Made by a program: the position numbers and the translations under genes
Shown: in pieces, positions 21,523 to 33,082 of the stretch
Layout: each line of letters starts with the position of its first letter
Numbering within the stretch: the stretch's first letter is position 1
NCBI RefSeq assembly: GCF_001639145.1
Contig: NZ_LROY01000002.1
Coordinates: 404,501 to 468,500, forward strand
Direction of reading: 5' to 3'
From: Microbulbifer sp. Q7
GTDB lineage: Bacteria; Pseudomonadota; Gammaproteobacteria; Pseudomonadales; Cellvibrionaceae
Length of the DNA stretch: 64,000 nt
Notes under the pieces: model-generated
The model's database searches: none
Told to the model about the DNA's origin: nothing
What the model saw: only the letters and a program-made list of their open reading frames with translations

Positions 21523-21765
21523 ATGACCGAGAGCGATTGGAGCAAGGTGAAAGATCAGGAGCCGGAGGCTGAGTTCGAGTTTCCGGTGAAGTCGCCTTGT
21601 GTTTCCGTTTGTGCGCTGAATCGCGATGATATCTGTGAGGGGTGTTTTCGCTCCGGGACTGAGATCAGTCAGTGGGGGCGGATGTCTAATGCTCAGAAAA
21701 AGCAGGTGTTGATTTTGTGCCATGAGCGGGCGGTGGAAATGAAGCGGGTTTGGTGGTCGGACTGA
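21523..21765 (+). CDS. DUF1289 small cysteine-motif protein
   Basis: An 80-residue protein. The core SPCVSVCALNRDDICEGCFR with the downstream E-I-S-x-W matches DUF1289, a short family with four conserved cysteines (C-x3-C-x7-C-x2-C) likely to bind a metal. Function unknown. It is probably co-transcribed with the upstream beta-helix gene. Confidence 0.85.
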   Translation: MTESDWSKVKDQEPEAEFEFPVKSPCVSVCALNRDDICEGCFRSGTEISQWGRMSNAQKKQVLILCHERAVEMKRVWWSD

Positions 21766-21797
21766 CCGTTTGTGGTCTGTTTTTTCGGCCCTCTGGC

Positions 21798-21922
21798 GGC
21801 GGATCAGCGGGTACGAGTTTTCAGGACCGAGCTAGGCGCCCCCCTGGGAACCCATCCCTGGGCGCTGCGGCGCAAACATCCTGTTTGCGACGCTCCTGAA
21901 AACTCGTACCCGCTGCTCCGCC
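21798..21922 (-). repeat. Hairpin element H1 (three-way-junction RNA-like)
   Basis: Arms 21798-21826 and 21894-21922 pair at 28 of 29 positions. Inside, read on the minus strand, lie hairpin A (21871-21889; an 8-bp stem with loop GGA, ACAGGATGT across the tip) and hairpin B (21836-21865; contains CCAGGGATGG). The ~67-base core is nearly the same as that of H4, in the opposite orientation. It sits between DUF1289 and dnaE. There is no T-run, so it does not look like an ordinary terminator. I assign it to the minus strand because of the GGA loops. Confidence 0.8.
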
Positions 21923-22020
21923 TTCGCTTCGGCTACAGTACTCCGTCAGAAATTATTGGGCACCAGGTTGCGATGAGTTGCCTGGGCTTACGAAGCAAAA
22001 AATTACCAGAATTGCACTAA

Positions 22021-22131
22021 GCATCGAGGGGCGGTAAGCCCTTCCGGGACCTTCGCCGACAGGGATGTCGGCGCAGAGCTACATGGATGTACTCGCCGCG
22101 TGTCCCGGAAGGGCTTACCGCCCCTCGGTGC
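22021..22131 (+). repeat. Hairpin element H2 (three-way-junction RNA-like)
   Basis: Arms 22021-22050 and 22102-22131 pair over 30 positions: 26 perfect inner pairs, then one G-U wobble on the plus strand, then three more pairs. Inside are hairpin A (22055-22072; 7-bp stem, tip ACAGGGATGT) and hairpin B (22076-22094; tip ACATGGATGT). Both tips fit the CsrA/RsmA consensus RUACARGGAUGU well. It lies 59 bases before the dnaE start, so it could be part of the dnaE leader. Confidence 0.82.
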
Positions 22132-22189
22132 GTACCCGGATTAGAGCTCAAAACAAAAGAGCCCCGGAACCAAACCAAATAGAAAAAAT

Positions 22190-25720
<3,531 letters not shown>

Positions 25721-25765
25721 ATATGAGCGGCACATTGGAGCGGTCTGCTTAGCCCCGGGCGCCGC

Positions 25766-25864
25766 GGTGCCGGTACGAGTATTCCGAATCGCTGTGAATA
25801 CGTCCCTGTACGCTCCGGCGGCGACGTCCTGTCGCCGACGGTTCGGAATACTCGCACCGGCACC
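25766..25864 (-). repeat. Hairpin element H3 (three-way-junction RNA-like)
   Basis: Arms 25766-25788 and 25842-25864 pair at 22 of 23 positions; the single difference is a G-U wobble if read on the minus strand. On that strand the core has hairpin A (25820-25836; stem GGCGAC/GTCGCC, loop AGGAC) and hairpin B (about 25797-25814; tip TACAGGGACGTA). The core layout resembles H2 and its hairpin A matches H4. It lies between dnaE and accA, antisense to both. Confidence 0.8.
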
Positions 25865-26055
25865 ACGCCTTCAATTTTGACCTCTTTGGTGGTCGGCGAA
25901 GAGAGAAGTGAACCCATGCACTCGACTGAATGGTCCTATCCCGGTAAGCTAGCCGCCATTTTCAGTAGACGAGGCCTGTTTGCGACTGTTCGGGGTGGTT
26001 TAGTCGCATTTTCCAACATTTGGCAGGCCCACAGAATTATCAAGGCGCGAATTAA

Positions 26056-27012
26056 ATGAACTTCAGTTTTCTCGAGTTTGAACAGCCAATTGCGGAACTG
26101 GAAAGCAAGATCAAGGAACTGCAGCATGTAGGGGACGACAACGACCTCAACATCGCTGAAGAGATCACCCGCCTGCGGGAAAAGAGCGAGAAGCTCACCG
26201 AGTCCCTGTATTCCGACCTCTCTCCGTGGCAGATCGTGCAGGTGGCCCGCCACCCGCAGCGCCCGTACGCGAAGGATTACATCGAACGTATTTTCACCGA
26301 TTGGGATGAGCTGCATGGCGATCGCCACTTCGGTGACGACCAGGCGATTATCGCCGGTATCGGTCGCCTCGAAGGCCGTCCGGTGGCGGTGATCGGTGAG
26401 GAGAAGGGCCGCACGGTCAACGAGAAGGTGAAGCGCAATTTTGGTATGCCGAAGCCGGAAGGTTACCGCAAGGCCCAGCGCATCATGGAGATGGCCGAGC
26501 GTTTCAAAATGCCGGTGCTGACGCTGATTGACACTCCGGGGGCCTATCCGGGTATCGACAGTGAGGAGCGCGGTATCTCCGAGGCCATCGCCAAGAACCT
26601 GGCGGTGATGTCGCGCCTGCGCACGCCGATTATCTGCACCGTGATTGGTGAGGGTTCTTCCGGTGGTGCACTGGCGATTGGTGTGGGCGACCAGCTGAAC
26701 ATGCTGCAGTACTCCACCTACTTTGTGATTTCCCCGGAAGGTTGCGCCAACATTATCTGGAAAACTGTGGAGAAGGCGCCGCTGGCGGCCGAGGCCATGG
26801 GGGTGACTTCCAGTGTGCTGGAGGAGCTGGGTATTGTGGACGAGACGCTGCCAGAGCCGCTGGGCGGCGCGCACCGCGATCCGGACCTGATGGCCGCGCG
26901 TCTGCGCGATCGACTGTCTGAGCAGCTGGACAAGCTGACCGCGGTTCCGATCGACGAGCTGCTGGAGAAGCGTTACCAGCGTTTGATGAGCTACGGTAAC
27001 GTCGCCGGCTAA
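26056..27012 (+). CDS. accA: Acetyl-CoA carboxylase carboxyltransferase alpha subunit
   Basis: A 318-residue carboxyltransferase subunit that with AccD transfers CO2 from carboxybiotin to acetyl-CoA, the first step of fatty-acid synthesis. Hallmarks are the start [14 protein letters not shown], the [17 protein letters not shown] segment and the oxyanion glycine motifs [16 protein letters not shown] and PEGCANIIW. Length is standard. It follows dnaE as in many gammaproteobacteria, after a 335-base gap that holds element H3. A bidirectional terminator follows. Confidence 0.97.
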
Positions 27013-27033
27013 TTTCCTTAGCGAGCGTTACTC

Positions 27034-27070
27034 AAAAACGGCGTCAACTTCGGTTGCCGCCGTTTTTTTT
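27034..27070. terminator. Bidirectional terminator between accA and the MBL-RNase gene
   Basis: AAACGGCG and CGCCGTTT arms extended by CAA/TTG around a CTTCGG-type loop. A T-run of eight follows on the plus strand and an A-run on the other side gives T on the minus strand, so it can serve both converging genes. Confidence 0.88.
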
Positions 27071-27099
27071 GCGCTTGCTTCTGCTCCCGCCAATCTTGT

Positions 27100-28461
27100 T
27101 TACAGGCGCAGAATGTCCCGGTAGCCGGCAACCCGTACCTGGAAGGGGGTGTTGTCCTGCAGGTAGAGACGCTGGCAATCGGCCGCGTCCGGCTCGCCGT
27201 GCACCAGTTGAATCTGGGTACCCGCCTCCAGTGCAGACTGCAACAGCCACTCGCCCAGCTCCACATAGTCCGCGTGGGCGGATAGCCCTTCCAGCATTTC
27301 GATCTGCGCCTTGCAGGTTATGTATTCCCCGTGAATCTTTACGTTTCGTGAACCGGCCAGCAGGCGGGCACCGCGGGTGCCGCCCGCCTGGTAGCCGGCG
27401 AATAACACGGTGGTTCGATGGTCGGGTAGCAAGCGCTTCATGTGGTGCAGTATGCGGCCGCCGCTGGCCATGCCGCTGCCGGCGATGATGATGTGGGGAT
27501 ACTGGATGTTCTCCAGAGCCTTGGACTGGTCCACGCTGCGGGTGTAGCGGATGCCGCTGCACATGAAGGTACAGTTTGCGGTACTGAGGCGGTGCTGGTC
27601 CGGGTAGCGGGCATAGATTCCCGAGGCGTCGATGGCCATGGGGCTGTCGAGGAAAATGGGGACTTTGGGAATCCGCTGTTCTCGCATCAGGTTCAGCAGT
27701 AGGAATTGCAGGGTTTGCGCCCGTCCCACGGCAAAACTCGGAATCAGTAACACTCCGCCGCGGCCGAGGGTGTTGTTGACGACCTCGGCCAGTTGTTGCG
27801 CGTGGTCAATCTGCGGGTGACGCCGGTCCCCATAGGTGGATTCCAGCAGCAGGAGGTCCAGAGCGGGCAGAGGCCGCGGCGAATGCATGATGAGATCGTG
27901 CGGGCGCCCCACATCACCGGAAAATCCTACCCGTTTGCCATCCGCTTCGAGAATGACACTGCCCGCACCCAGAATGTGCCCCGCCGGCTGGATATGCAGG
28001 GTGGCGCTGCCAATTCGGATTTTTTCGTCGAAGGCCACTGGCTGGAACAGCTCCAGGCACCGCTCTGCAGTGTCGCCGTTGTACAGGGGCACGGGGTGGG
28101 CGTGCTTGCCGAGTTTGTGGCGCTGGTAGAAGCGGGCGTCTTCTTCTTGGATATGTCCGGCATCCGGCAGAAGAATCGAGCAGAGATCGGCGGTGGCGTG
28201 GTGGCAGTAGACCGGGCCGCGATATCCCTGCTGGTAGAGCCGCGGAATATAACCGGAATGATCCAGGTGGGCGTGGGTGAGGACGATCCCCTTGAGATGG
28301 CGGTAGTCGAACAGGGGCGCTTCCCAGTTGCGCTCGCGCAACCATTTGTAGCCCTGGAACATGCCGCAATCCACCAGAAACTGCGTTTTACCCTCATCCA
28401 CACTGATCAGAAATTTCGAGCCGGTAACCGTGCCGGTGCCGCCAAGGAACGTGATATTCAT
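27100..28461 (-). CDS. Metallo-beta-lactamase/beta-CASP ribonuclease
   Basis: A 453-residue protein of the CPSF-73/RNase J-like group. It has an MBL core with the zinc motif THAHLDHSG, a beta-CASP insert (LIPSFAVGRAQTL, DSPMAID) and a C-terminal RMMBL part (SAHAD). These enzymes cleave RNA at phosphodiester bonds. The frame extends to 28479, but the ATG at 28461 is preferred: homology starts with MNITFLGGTGTVTGS and GGAG lies in the right place upstream. It is probably co-transcribed with the thymidine-phosphorylase-like gene 85 bases upstream, which suggests coupled RNA or nucleotide breakdown. Confidence 0.87.
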   Translation of the reverse strand: MNITFLGGTGTVTGSKFLISVDEGKTQFLVDCGMFQGYKWLRERNWEAPLFDYRHLKGIVLTHAHLDHSGYIPRLYQQGYRGPVYCHHATADLCSILLPDAGHIQEEDARFYQRHKLGKHAHPVPLYNGDTAERCLELFQPVAFDEKIRIGSATLHIQPAGHILGAGSVILEADGKRVGFSGDVGRPHDLIMHSPRPLPALDLLLLESTYGDRRHPQIDHAQQLAEVVNNTLGRGGVLLIPSFAVGRAQTLQFLLLNLMREQRIPKVPIFLDSPMAIDASGIYARYPDQHRLSTANCTFMCSGIRYTRSVDQSKALENIQYPHIIIAGSGMASGGRILHHMKRLLPDHRTTVLFAGYQAGGTRGARLLAGSRNVKIHGEYITCKAQIEMLEGLSAHADYVELGEWLLQSALEAGTQIQLVHGEPDAADCQRLYLQDNTPFQVRVAGYRDILRL

Positions 28462-28546
28462 CGGTAGGATTTTCTCCATTGGCCAGTGTTGCTGCGCGTG
28501 CGTGGCGATAGGCGCTTCTCAAAGGTTATCCGCTTGCGGCGCTTTC

Positions 28547-30109
28547 CTATCGATTACCGTCCCTGTCGCCATCTCGGTTGCCCTCGGTTATCGCCGGTGT
28601 ATTTGCGGGCGCAACGTCAAACAGGTCCCGGTTTTGATGGTAGTACTCCCGCGCGTAGGCCAGCTCCCCCGGCGTCTGTGCCAGCAGTGTTGCCAGTGCC
28701 TGGCCCGCGCGGATGGTGTCCCCCACCTTGACCTGCAGGCGCAGTCCGGCTTCCGGGGACGAGGGGGCGCCGGCAACTTTGGCCAGGTGTGCCAGGCGCC
28801 GGTTGTCCATACCGCGCAGGTGTCCATCCCATGTGCTGCGCAGCTCGATATGGTGGCTGGCGGTTGGGATTTCGCGGAGGCCGCCTTGGGCTTCGCAGAT
28901 ATTCAGGAACTGCTGCAGAGCCTCGCCTGATTCCAGCAAGTCCCGGGCATTTCGGTACGCCTGCGCGTCACTGGTTTCATCCGCCATACATAACAGTTGT
29001 GCCGCAAGAAACAGCGCGCGCTCCTTCAGGTCCGCCGGGGCGTGTTGCTCGTTGTGCAACACACTCAGCACATCGCGCGCCTCCTCGGCGGGGCCGATGC
29101 CCCAGCCAACCGCCTGGCTGCCATCGGATTGTACACAGCGAACCTCGACCCCGAGGTTGCCGGCCACTGCATGAAACAGGGATTCGAGATCTGCCGCCTG
29201 TTGCGGGGTGCGTAATTTCGCGGTGGGACCCACGGGCATGTCAATCAGGATGTGGGTGGAACCGGCGGCCATTTTCTTGGAAAGCACCGAGGCGACAAGC
29301 TGTCCCTCACTGTCCAGGTCCAGGGCGCGCTCGATGCGAATCAAAAGGTCATCGGTTGGGCTCAGCCCGACTTCGCCCCCAGCGGCGAGGCAGGCCCCGG
29401 TACGGGTGATCACGTTGCGCAACTGTGCCAGCGGCAGGTCGACGTTGGTCAGTACCTCCATGGTGTCGGCGGTGCCCGCCGGTGAGGTGATGGCGCGAGA
29501 GGAGGTTTTGGGAATGACGAGGCCCGCGGCACTGACGATGGCCACCACAATCGGCGTCGTGCGGTTACCAGGCAGGCCGCCGATGCAGTGCTTGTCGAAC
29601 ACACGTGTGTACTCGGGCCAGTGCAGTCGGTTGCCGTTGTTGATCATGGCGGTGGTCAGCGCAGTGGTTTCGGCGGCATCGAGGCGTCCGCCGGCGCAGG
29701 CGGTCAGGAAACTGGCGACTTCGATATCCGAATAGCGGCGTTGGCCGATGTCTCCGATGATGCTGCTGATTTCCAGGGTATTGAGCCGGTGACCATAGAT
29801 TTTCTTGCGTAGGGCGCTCAGTGAGGGCACCGGCGGGGCGTGGTGAACATGAACCACCGAGTGTTTATCCAGCCCGAGGAATTCCCAGGCGCTGTCGGAA
29901 AAACCGATATAGCCCTGGGGCAGAATCGTTTCACTCACCGTGTTGAGAGTCGCAATCAGCGTGCGCTGGCCGGCGCTGATTTGCAGTCGGGTGTTTGCCG
30001 TGTAGCCCTCGGCACGGCATATGGCGCAGTCCTTGCGCATGAAGACAATGGGTTCCTCATGGGTGTCGATTCCCATGCTGTAGGCAGTGAGTGGCAGCGC
30101 CCGGGCCAT
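28547..30109 (-). CDS. Thymidine phosphorylase family protein (AMP-phosphorylase-like)
   Basis: A 520-residue nucleoside/nucleotide phosphorylase. It has an N-terminal ~90-residue extension, a glycosyltransferase-family helical domain, and the phosphate/sugar-binding core (DKHCIGGLPGNRTTPI, KTSSRAITSPAGTADTMEVLT). A C-terminal pyrimidine-phosphorylase domain follows. Size and N-terminal extension fit the archaeal-type AMP phosphorylase/DeoA2 subgroup rather than classical DeoA, so a nucleoside monophosphate substrate is plausible but unproven. The tail is a charged GNRDGDRDGNR repeat. It lies upstream of the beta-CASP RNase gene on the same strand. Confidence 0.85.
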   Translation of the reverse strand: MARALPLTAYSMGIDTHEEPIVFMRKDCAICRAEGYTANTRLQISAGQRTLIATLNTVSETILPQGYIGFSDSAWEFLGLDKHSVVHVHHAPPVPSLSALRKKIYGHRLNTLEISSIIGDIGQRRYSDIEVASFLTACAGGRLDAAETTALTTAMINNGNRLHWPEYTRVFDKHCIGGLPGNRTTPIVVAIVSAAGLVIPKTSSRAITSPAGTADTMEVLTNVDLPLAQLRNVITRTGACLAAGGEVGLSPTDDLLIRIERALDLDSEGQLVASVLSKKMAAGSTHILIDMPVGPTAKLRTPQQAADLESLFHAVAGNLGVEVRCVQSDGSQAVGWGIGPAEEARDVLSVLHNEQHAPADLKERALFLAAQLLCMADETSDAQAYRNARDLLESGEALQQFLNICEAQGGLREIPTASHHIELRSTWDGHLRGMDNRRLAHLAKVAGAPSSPEAGLRLQVKVGDTIRAGQALATLLAQTPGELAYAREYYHQNRDLFDVAPANTPAITEGNRDGDRDGNR

Positions 30110-30217
30110 AGTGTGATCCCTGATCTCCCAACGGTGCGACCGGGGGGACAGTCCCGGCGGAAATATAGTGTAGGTGTTTCCGGCGGATGCGGGTGCGGCG
30201 GGGCACTATGCCGTCGG

Positions 30218-30257
30218 CGGCGCAGGCGGCGCAGGCGGCGCAGGCGGCGCAGGCGGT
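30218..30257. repeat. 9-bp GC-rich tandem repeat (CGGCGCAGG x4)
   Basis: Four perfect copies at 30218-30253 plus a partial copy, in the 343-base divergent gap between the phosphorylase gene and the TSUP gene. The plus strand would read as Ala-Gln-Ala repeats in a doubtful short frame. Apart from this I see no gene in 30110-30452; it must hold both divergent promoters. Confidence 0.85.
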
Positions 30258-30452
30258 GTCCGGCGGGATGAGCTCGGGCCACGCCCGATGTCCCCAAATG
30301 ACCAGTACAGGGCCCGTGACTACTGGGTTGGATGCTGTCCTTGCGGCTAGACTGGCGATCGCTCAAAAACCGTTCGAATCCGCGTTTCGTTGAACGTATC
30401 GCAAATTCGACCAGCCCGAAAGTAAACACTGTTCAAAGCGTGGGGGGAGTCC

Positions 30453-31232
30453 TTGGCGGAGTTGGGTTCGCTGTTAAGCCTGATGCCAGACCAGAGCCCC
30501 GGCCTTGCCCTCGGCCTGTTGCTCGCCGTGTGTGTCCTCAGTGCGTTTATCTCCGCGGTAACCGGCGGTGCCGGCGGTATACTGATGTTTGCCGCCCTTA
30601 ATGTGGTCATCCCGCTGCGCGCCCTGGTGCCGATTCACGGCGCCGTACAGCTGCTGAATAACCTCGCGCGTATTGCGTATGTGCGTGAGCATATCCGCTG
30701 GGACCAGTGCATTCCGTTCTTTATCGGCTGTACCCTGGGCTCCGCCGCCATGACCCTTGGCCTGGCTAATCTGGACTGGCAGCAACTGCCACTCGTGTTG
30801 TTGGCGGTTCTGATTTTATACACCGTATTCAAGCCCAAGAAACTCCCGGAAATCCGCCTCAAACCGCGCAGCTTTTTCTGGGTGGGTATCGCCACAGGAA
30901 CTCTGGGTATCGTTGCAGGGGCCGTAGATCCACTATTGGCTGCTTTCTTTGTGCGCAAAGATATGACGCCAAAGGAAATCGTCGCGAACAAGTCCGTGAT
31001 GCAGGCGTGGTGTCACGCACTGAAGGTGCCCGCATTTATTTACCTTGGCTTCGCGTTTTCCGAGCATCTGGGATTGATATTGCTGTTGACCGTAGCCGCG
31101 GTCGTCGGTACCCGCATCGGTATCGCACTACTGAATCGAATCAATAGCGAAGTCTTTTTCAATCTTATGCGTGCGGCACTTTTGATTGCCGGCGCGCGCA
31201 TTATCTACCAATTAGTTGCCCCCGCAATTTAA
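30453..31232 (+). CDS. TSUP family (TauE/SafE-like) membrane transporter
   Basis: A 259-residue polytopic protein with about eight hydrophobic segments in two similar halves. Each half has the TSUP signature (VTGGAGGILMFAALN early; GTLGIVAGAVDPLLAAFFV in the second half). TSUP proteins export sulfite, sulfonates or other small anions. The start appears to be TTG with GGGGGAG just upstream; the ATG at 30483 is an alternative. It is 25 bases upstream of an aldehyde dehydrogenase gene and likely shares its transcript, which hints at an aldehyde pathway that releases or takes up an organosulfur or related anion. Confidence 0.82.
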   Translation: MAELGSLLSLMPDQSPGLALGLLLAVCVLSAFISAVTGGAGGILMFAALNVVIPLRALVPIHGAVQLLNNLARIAYVREHIRWDQCIPFFIGCTLGSAAMTLGLANLDWQQLPLVLLAVLILYTVFKPKKLPEIRLKPRSFFWVGIATGTLGIVAGAVDPLLAAFFVRKDMTPKEIVANKSVMQAWCHALKVPAFIYLGFAFSEHLGLILLLTVAAVVGTRIGIALLNRINSEVFFNLMRAALLIAGARIIYQLVAPAI

Positions 31233-31257
31233 GCAGAATAGAAAGTAGGTACATACC

Positions 31258-32625
31258 ATGGCCGACTACCAGATTATTAATCCATTTAATGGCGAGCAGA
31301 TCGAAGCCTATGACTTTCACACCAAAGCCCAGGTGGAAGCGGCCATCCAAAATCTGGTTGCTGGACGTAAAATCCAGCAGGCGACCCCTGCGTTCGAGCG
31401 CTCCAATATCCTGATGAGGCTCGCCCAGCTCATCCTGGAGCGCAAGGAAGACCTGGCTCGCCTGATCACCGAAGAGACGGGCAAAACCATCAGTGACAGT
31501 CACGTAGAAATCGACCGCGCCTACAACACCGCACTGGCCAGCGCCATCGAAGCGCGCAACATGAATGGCGAAGCCCTCGACTCCGATGCCTTCCCGCCCA
31601 TGCGCGAAAAAATCGGCATAGTCCTATGGAAGCCGCTGGGCACGGTTTTGTGTATTACCCCATTCAACTTCCCAATTAACATCGCGGTACACAAAATCGG
31701 CCCAGCGTTTGCCGCCGGCAACACCATCCTGTTTAAACCCGGCCCACAAAACAAACGCTCGGCTGAATTATTGGTCGAACTCTGCCACGCCGCAGGCATG
31801 GACAAATCCGTAGTGCAAATGCTGATTCCGGACATCGAAGCCACCAGCTACGCCGTCTCCCACCGGGAAATCCAGGCCATCAACTTCACCGGCGGCACCG
31901 CCGCCGCCAATGCCATCGCGCGGAACGCCGGCTACAAAAAAATGCTGTTCGAACTCGGTGGCAACGACCCGCTCATCGTCATGCCCGACGCCGACCTCGA
32001 TGCCGCAGTAACGGCCACCATCAACCAACGTTTTGCCACCGCCGGCCAGCGCTGTACCGCGGCGAAGCGCCTGTTTGTACACACTGCCGTGTTTGACGCC
32101 TTTGCCGAAAAACTCGTGGCCGCTACCGCCAGACTCAAAGTCGGCGACCCGACGCAAGACGACACCTTCGTCGGTCCCCTGATCCACACCGCCGCTGCCG
32201 ACGAGGTGGCAGGGCGCATCGAATCTGCCGTACAGGGTGGAGCAAACGTGCTTTACGGCGACAAACGTGAAGGAAATATTCTCTGGCCAACCATCCTCGA
32301 CAACGTCGCCGACGACGCCGAACTGGTCGCGGAAGAAACCTTTGGCCCCGTGGTGCCGCTGCGCAAGTTCGACGACGAAGCAGAACTGGTTTCCCTGATC
32401 AATAACTCTCCCTTTGGCCTGCAGGCCGGCGTATTTACCCAGAACCTTGCCCTCGCCAAACGTCTCTACAATCAGTTGGATGTAGGCCTGCTCGCCGTCA
32501 ACGACGGCCCCGGCTTCCGCGCGGAACATTTCCCGTTCGGCGGGGTAAAGGAAAGTGGTGTCGGTAGGGAAGGGGTGCGCTACGCCATTCGTGAAATGAG
32601 TTACCAGAAAACACTGGTGATCTAA
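31258..32625 (+). CDS. NAD(P)-dependent aldehyde dehydrogenase
   Basis: A 455-residue member of the aldehyde dehydrogenase superfamily. It has TPFNFPIN in the Rossmann domain, FTGG and ELGGNDPLIV around the general base Glu, the nucleophile motif GQRCTAAKR, and the C-terminal EETFGPVVP and PFGGVKESG. It is shorter than most ALDHs (~480-500) and closest in feel to the lactaldehyde/phosphonoacetaldehyde/semialdehyde branch. The substrate is unknown. Pairing with a TSUP exporter suggests an aldehyde such as a sulfo- or phospho-aldehyde, but this is inference. Its plus strand is C-rich compared with other plus-strand genes in the window. Confidence 0.87.
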   Translation: MADYQIINPFNGEQIEAYDFHTKAQVEAAIQNLVAGRKIQQATPAFERSNILMRLAQLILERKEDLARLITEETGKTISDSHVEIDRAYNTALASAIEARNMNGEALDSDAFPPMREKIGIVLWKPLGTVLCITPFNFPINIAVHKIGPAFAAGNTILFKPGPQNKRSAELLVELCHAAGMDKSVVQMLIPDIEATSYAVSHREIQAINFTGGTAAANAIARNAGYKKMLFELGGNDPLIVMPDADLDAAVTATINQRFATAGQRCTAAKRLFVHTAVFDAFAEKLVAATARLKVGDPTQDDTFVGPLIHTAAADEVAGRIESAVQGGANVLYGDKREGNILWPTILDNVADDAELVAEETFGPVVPLRKFDDEAELVSLINNSPFGLQAGVFTQNLALAKRLYNQLDVGLLAVNDGPGFRAEHFPFGGVKESGVGREGVRYAIREMSYQKTLVI

Positions 32626-32654
32626 TCGCTACGAAGTACACAGCCAGAAGATAA

Positions 32655-32778
32655 GGCCGGGTGCTGGGTGGAAGGTTTCAGGAGCGTCGGCGACAGGACG
32701 TCGCCGCCGCAGCGCCCAGGGATGGGTTGAAGGGGGGCGCCTAGCTCGGTCCTGAAACCTTTCACCCGGTGCCCGGCC
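32655..32778 (+). repeat. Hairpin element H4 (three-way-junction RNA-like)
   Basis: Arms 32655-32683 and 32750-32778 form a 29-bp helix in which all four non-Watson-Crick positions are G-U wobbles on the plus strand. The core holds hairpin A (32688-32706; 7-bp stem, loop AGGAC) and hairpin B (32712-32740; stem GCGCCC/GGGCGC, contains CCAGGGATGG). Core sequence is nearly the same as H1 read from the minus strand, but most of the outer arm differs. It lies 29 bases after the aldehyde dehydrogenase stop and 67 bases before the thiC -35 element, so it is probably in the 3' UTR of the former. Confidence 0.85.
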
Positions 32779-32845
32779 GCCACCGTAAGACCTACGAAGT
32801 ATTCACTACCACAGAACCAGGCTAACGCCAAAATATCCCAGAGAC

Positions 32846-32875: not shown

Positions 32876-32883
32876 CCGCTCCA

Positions 32884-32968
32884 ACTTGTCGGAGTGCCTT
32901 CGGGCTGAGATCGCTGTTGCGAGATCCGTTGAACCTGATCGGGGTAACCCCCGCGTAGGGAACAAGAT
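32884..32968 (+). ncRNA. TPP riboswitch (THI element)
   Basis: Conserved THI-box pieces are in order: closing ACTTGTC...GAACAAG helix, GGGCTGAGA, GTTGAACCTGAT, and GGGGTAACCCCCGCGTAGGGAA. The GGGG/CCCC stem and the CTGAGA/CCTGAT cores bind the pyrimidine and pyrophosphate ends of thiamine pyrophosphate. It lies 124 bases before thiC and should reduce expression of the whole thi operon when TPP is abundant. A terminator or ribosome-site sequestering arm is not obvious in the following bases. Confidence 0.96.
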
Positions 32969-33082
32969 CTGAAATCGCTATTTTTCGTACGTTGAATTTT
33001 TGCGTCCGAAACCCGCTCTCCCCACCTGTACCCCGGCAATCCACTCACGGATACCATCCAAGGAACGTCCGCAACGACGTAA

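Follow-up and report, generated by a model that had tools for sequence, protein, structure and literature searches.

The four intergenic hairpin elements in the window, by which we mean the whole 64,000-nucleotide stretch of the Microbulbifer sp. Q7 genome that was analyzed, belong to a widely dispersed family with a conserved fold, and on balance, with moderate confidence, we read this family as mobile elements of the YPAL/RU-2 type that present paired predicted CsrA-type RNA sites. Each element has two small hairpins with GGA in their loops. The strand that carries these GGA loops appears to be the strand that is kept folded, and its upkeep is independent of the direction of the neighboring genes.

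The window elements and their family

The original prediction described four elements, H1 to H4, in which an outer helix closes two smaller hairpins, and both the positions and this fold were borne out for all four, the helix comprising about 26 to 30 pairs (Table 1). Folding z-scores, taken on the strand bearing the GGA loops, were −10.1 for H1 (− strand), −11.9 for H2 (+ strand), −9.7 for H3 (− strand), and −6.4 for H4 (+ strand), and in each case 0 of 200 shuffled sequences was as stable as the element. A covariance model built from 14 copies (R1) matched the 64-kb window at these four positions and no others (E ≤ 1e-4), on both strands at two of them, in agreement with the claim that the window holds no fifth copy. 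H1 and H2 form a divergent pair 95 bp apart, and both H1 and H4 carry about 14 nt extra between hairpin 2 and the 3′ arm. This 14-nt insert of H1 is absent from the otherwise near-identical copy at the same site in the close relative G029 and therefore represents a recent local change.

The elements had also been described as free of terminators, and this was upheld for H1 and H2 by a scan of positions 21700 to 22200, which found two terminator sites, both before H1 (21758 to 21779), and for H3 and H4 by eye. No sigma-70-like promoter was matched around H1 and H2 in the same interval. At gathering score, Rfam matched only tRNA and the TPP riboswitch in the 64-kb window and none of the elements. 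The TPP riboswitch lies at window positions 32880 to 32978, about 100 bp downstream of H4. A permissive Rfam search of positions 21700 to 22250 also brought up three microRNA families, which scored far under their cut-offs and were taken as chance matches.

Table 1. Positions of elements H1 to H4 and their parts in the window
Feature	Window positions	Strand	Basis
H1, whole element	21794..21924	− (GGA strand)	Fold and covariance model
H1, hairpin 1 (GGA loop)	21871..21889	−	
H1, hairpin 2 (GGA loop)	21850..21863	−	
H1, 14-nt insert, missing from same-site copy of genome G029	21830..21843	−	
H2, whole element, divergent partner of H1	22020..22134	+	Fold and covariance model
H2, hairpin 1 (GGA loop)	22054..22073	+	
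H2, hairpin 2 (GGA loop)	22080..22091	+	Sequence, fold
H3, whole element	25757..25871	−	Fold and covariance model
H3, hairpin 1 (GGA loop)	25819..25837	−	
H3, hairpin 2 (GGA loop)	25799..25810	−	Sequence, fold
H4, whole element	32653..32782	+	Fold and covariance model
H4, hairpin 1 (GGA loop)	32688..32706	+	
H4, hairpin 2 (GGA loop)	32714..32727	+	
H4, insert of the same kind as that of H1 (ends approximate)	32733..32746	+	

Genome-wide, the family has at least 111 copies, 110 places found with R1 and one in further stretches examined, opposite-strand rows of one place having been merged before counting; the figure is a lower bound, since 150 of 2210 first-look candidates were scored. The copies support the proposal of a family sharing one three-way-junction plan. 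Read along the GGA strand, an element begins with AAGG and a copy-specific 5′ arm, followed by hairpin 1 (NGGAY), a linker, hairpin 2 (NGGAY), a TTCACRGCG-like stretch, the 3′ arm, and GCCAC. Two subfamilies can be told apart by a rough rule, A with 67 copies and B with 44, and by a second rough rule 20 copies, including H1 and H4, carry a GGGGGCGCCTAG-like extra stretch before the 3′ arm. A few copies contain larger nested hairpins. The copies at C2:2054069 and C1:491930 of this genome seem to share one nested hairpin insert, inverted in one copy relative to the other and bearing further GGA loops. Elements tend to pair: for 21 sets of neighbors separated by under 250 bp, the arrangement is divergent in 18, with the 5′ ends facing, convergent in 3, and tandem in 0.

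The predicted intergenic placement holds throughout this genome, none of the 111 copies (0/111) lying inside a gene called by a custom gene caller; a crude longest-ORF call puts 26 of the 125 places examined in other genera inside an ORF. Relative to the element, the flanking genes of the 111 copies are both sense in 47 cases and both antisense in 41, showing no orientation bias, and are convergent in 16 cases and divergent in 7. The co-directional cases in other genera show no bias either (20 sense versus 21 antisense). Three roles had been put forward for the elements, and two of them, structured RNA and mobile palindrome, appear to apply at once; the third, that of a simple 3′ UTR element, loses support because orientation bias is lacking. 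The same absence of a sense bias, both here and in other genera, speaks against a role in mRNA decay or processing, in which the stem would shield transcript 3′ ends or be cut there and the GGA loops would be there for a different protein, if for any. PMC2229807 reports such a role for YPAL, and in this genome the copy is closer to the stop codon before it than to the start codon after it in 60 of 88 co-directional gaps; however, a stem alone would not preserve GGA in both loops, and we regard this explanation as distinctly unlikely.

Covariation and strand-specific pairing

Covariation in the outer helix, on which the original prediction had staked its proposal, is present. In a MAFFT alignment of 36 copies, hand-picked among the R1 matches (32 from other genomes and 4 from this one), 39 of the 41 pairs show changes on both sides, and 89.2% of the alignment cells are paired, versus 55.7% when shuffled and at most 47.3% when slid. 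Both GGA loops, together with parts of the linker and of the 3′ stretch, are nearly invariant in the multi-genus alignment.

The strand that folds was identified by aligning the two arms by identity alone and sorting their transition mismatches, as read on the GGA strand, into G-U and A-C. A palindrome kept only as duplex DNA would be expected to show equal numbers of the two. G-U mismatches outnumbered A-C mismatches by 172 to 20 in this genome and by 101 to 4 in relatives. Because structure models favor G-U, copies from other genera that had been found by a sequence pattern, with no structure model, were added; a usable arm alignment was obtained at 100 of 121 places, and the ratio was 102 to 20. 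Transversion mismatches in the three sets numbered 98, 81, and 145, respectively.

Shared ancestry inflates mismatch counts, and copies at the same site were therefore compared with each other, which gave 50 comparisons among 29 copies. Where only one side of a long-stem pair had changed, the shift was between Watson-Crick and G-U pairs in 66 cases and between Watson-Crick and A-C pairs in 3; 44 transversions broke a pair, and 116 double changes led from one Watson-Crick pair to another. In the low-identity comparisons some copies may have been replaced rather than evolved; the 20 comparisons that were at least 88% alike gave 15 G-U and 1 A-C. When tallied per copy, one-sided changes occurred in 19, of which 17 favor G-U, 0 favor A-C, and 2 are balanced. 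Pairs that did not change were A-C in 42 cases and G-U in 35, with 39 of the 42 A-C pairs within the first three positions; once the unpaired AAG/CCA end is set aside, the inside of the arm has 35 unchanged G-U pairs versus 3 A-C pairs. Copies antisense to both neighbors gave 18 G-U and 0 A-C changes, and sense copies gave 48 and 3. Since antisense copies show the same bias, read-through from neighboring genes is not the whole story, and the preference for G-U even where the neighbors are antisense points to selection on one folded strand.

Fifteen pairs of close orthologs differ by 2.6% in the arms and 1.6% in the core, compared with 6.4% and 5.6% in the 35-nt flanks, a comparison biased by the choice of pairs at an element identity of ≥88%. 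The 5′ flank was no better kept than the 3′ flank.

Kinship, spread, and movement

Judged by their sequence and plan, these hairpins are a variant of YPAL/RU-2, repeats already known from Yersinia. The original prediction knew of no named family for the plan and counted a clear match to an existing family against itself; this outcome came about in part, through YPAL/RU-2 and the sub-threshold TwoAYGGAY matches described below. The large variant found here seems new. When aligned with the RU-2 letters printed in PMC2759123, the core has the same order, with two CANGGANG hairpins, AGC between them, and then TTTACGGCG. The elements also share with these repeats, as described in PMC2229807, an intergenic location, filled and empty sites (likewise seen here among relatives), the absence of TA ends, and internal inverted repeats. 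YPAL/RU-2 repeats are about 167 to 168 bp long; the core here is 117 to 135 bp in most copies, and about 150 bp are common to three recently spread copies. The arms and outer ends differ, and the more than 100 copies, divergent pairs, two subfamilies, and nested inserts set the present family apart. Target duplications of 3 to 26 bp are given for YPAL in PMC2229807; none that was clean could be recognized by eye here in filled and empty sites compared with relatives.

Among 36 outside loci scanned with Rfam, 1, a Sodalis copy that R1 matches as well, scored 82.9 bits (cut-off, 70) with Ysr224 (RF02770) on the opposite strand, and the Ysr224 consensus, when reverse-complemented, resembles RU-2 by eye. 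CsrB/CsrC and RsmX/Y/Z carry several GGA hairpins per RNA and come from a few sRNA genes, unlike the many dispersed copies with two sites each described here; they had no Rfam match within the 64-kb window. The outer stem closing two GGA-loop hairpins is shared with TwoAYGGAY (RF01731), which in PMC4333381 is placed in Clostridia and proposed to bind CsrA. TwoAYGGAY matched eight places in this genome at an E value of ≤1, all eight of them family elements, with a best score of 39.7 bits versus its cut-off of 43, and at gathering score it matched none of the 36 loci of other genera. REP sequences (GTAG and CGTC types) and BIMEs are characterized in PMC3733652 as abundant intergenic palindromes, often in inverted pairs, and the present elements are likewise numerous intergenic palindromes paired in inverted orientation. 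However, REPs measure 20 to 40 bp, and the elements here measure about 117 bp or more, form a three-way junction, and have no RAYT link. CGTC-type REPs bear a CGTC tag and a CCA tail on their 20- to 40-bp hairpin, and in many copies here hairpin 1 is preceded by CGTC and the 3′ end reads GCCA.

A covariance-model search of the genome and its relatives, suggested together with the original prediction, yielded many homologs beyond the window, in this genome and in other Gammaproteobacteria; among the matches listed, the best-scoring outside copies were Microbulbifer records. With 63 candidates scored per genome, matches were found in 34 of 37 same-genus genomes and in 4 of 21 others of the order, and in a class-wide panel with 13 candidates scored per genome, 52 of 274 genomes matched the multi-genus model R2 (E ≤ 1e-4). 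A 19-letter core pattern was found in at least 119 stretches across genome contigs, some of which may be chance matches; 71 of 80 pattern stretches had an R1 match at an E value of ≤0.01. The titles of these 80 stretches name gammaproteobacterial groups, including Stenotrophomonas, Xanthomonas, Halomonas, Marinobacter, Shewanella, and Alteromonas, except for one title that gives only Proteobacteria.

Comparison with G029 revealed three sites that are filled here and empty there (C1:36400, C1:457707, and the pair at C1:905997/906167), other sites where the element is partly deleted or different, and one site with two elements there and one here. At the H3 site, the dnaE-accA gap, no element is present in G002, G027, or G063, and G029 has a quite different element, one of subfamily B. 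The dnaE-accA gap of G001 contains an H3-like element with a long nested insert that resembles one in the H4 copy of G029. Within this genome, two copies whose sites are unrelated share 87% identity across 209 bases.

A selfish repeat that has no host function, and whose copies are alike because they are young, would account for the high copy number, the patchy presence, and the absence or scarcity of matches in some relatives. We nevertheless give this explanation little credence, as it does not predict same-site changes that are strand-biased by 66 to 3, nor ortholog elements that diverge less than their flanks, even if the latter comparison is biased by its identity threshold.

The folded form might also be single-stranded DNA, with a transposase or recombinase reading the two GGA hairpins and the likeness to CsrA sites being coincidental. 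Folded DNA also tolerates G-T pairs, DNA hairpins are read by structure in IS200/IS605 elements and at integron attC sites, the elements move, and their strand bias is independent of gene direction. We consider this alternative unlikely, however: the strand bias is also found in fixed same-site copies, for which selection on movement alone is inadequate, and no enzyme is linked to the elements. No element lies within 3.3 kb around the one Y1_Tnp gene of this genome, an element is nearby in 1 of 31 Y1 loci, and three genomes without a Y1 match still have 49, 48, and 15 element matches. A link to RAYT/REPtron systems is likewise unsupported. The Y1_Tnp-family gene of this genome (L009, C1:804384-804710) lies, by eye, between phosphatase-like and type VI secretion-like genes in a type VI secretion cluster, and its HUH stretch looks broken; a weak Y1_Tnp match similar to it is found in many same-genus genomes.

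Paired GGA loops and their possible role

According to PMC4347634, the preferred target of CsrA is RUACARGGAUGU, with the GGA lying within the loop of a hairpin, and hairpin loops of this type are present in the elements. In a position-bound test, 103 of the 111 copies had both GGA loops, 6 had one, and 2 had none; free folding gave GGA in 205 of 244 terminal loops on the GGA strand and in 2 of 240 on the other strand. The two GGA motifs are 22 to 24 nt apart in 98 of the 99 copies with two such loops. The exact consensus RTACARGGATGT has 18 matches in the genome, 17 of them inside elements, and the reversed consensus used as a control has 0. The exact 12-mer is thus found in 17 of 111 copies and missing from 94, and the 17 sites, being copies of one family, are not independent events. 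Between close orthologs, conservation was no better in the NGGAY loops (4 of 149 differing) than in the remaining core (12 of 739).

The 37 same-genus genomes together contain 528 exact consensus matches versus 15 for the reversed control, and the consensus count follows the number of elements, itself a minimum in each genome, with a rank correlation of 0.82. There were 492 matches versus 9 in the 23 element-rich genomes and 33 versus 6 in the 13 element-poor ones (G035, with 15 element matches, is in neither group), and 29 versus 7 in the 21 other genomes of the order. The largest number among all 58 genomes is that of G005, a same-genus genome with 93 exact matches and 0 reversed.

csrA is present in 54 of the 58 genomes searched, with one gene in this genome. 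Across the 37 genomes, few elements are found where there are five or more csrA copies (Fisher P = 0.0011); the eight csrA-rich genomes all fall into a single clade of an accA tree, so that the association counts as one event and carries little weight. Among these eight, G006 still has 38 element matches, and no element was found near csrA paralogs in 20 stretches from four csrA-rich genomes. These eight genomes (G003, G004, G006, G009, G010, G014, G030, and G036) have 5 to 19 csrA matches each, partly in tight clusters with broken copies, as at G010:C1:2871227-2882688.

The surprising part of these results is the combination of strand-specific upkeep with CsrA-type loops. It seems to be new, as we found no earlier report of a CsrA signature in YPAL-type repeats in the open-license literature.

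In the reading that we favor, a unit of very roughly 150 bp would have dispersed into intergenic sites, frequently as two divergent copies, and in each copy one strand, most likely in the form of RNA, would be maintained in its fold. The long outer helix would clamp the two small hairpins and hold their GGA loops 22 to 24 nt apart, and in loop sequence and pairing these hairpins appear to resemble CsrA/RsmA binding sites. One CsrA dimer can bridge two sites, so a single dimer could hold both hairpins of an element. We infer that copies are transcribed, that they are bound by CsrA, and that this affects the cell: once transcribed, a copy may serve as a portable CsrA site, either taking up CsrA or protecting or exposing the RNA in which it lies. 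The weakest point of this RNA-based, CsrA-binding reading is the missing orientation bias. More tentatively, and at a probability that we put well short of even, the whole gammaproteobacterial class of mobile repeats, YPAL/RU-2 included, might consist of portable paired CsrA sites, acting as a dispersed sink or tying local RNAs to CsrA. Folding is kept whichever way the neighboring genes run, so copies would, on this proposal, make their own transcripts.

The view taken of YPAL-type repeats so far is that they are miniature insertion sequences that may influence mRNA stability. Should their conserved core indeed present paired CsrA sites, these genome repeats would be tied to a major global RNA regulator, and the retention of GGA in both loops despite drifting stems would be explained. 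Models of the Csr/Rsm system would then have to reckon with an overlooked pool of possible CsrA sites.
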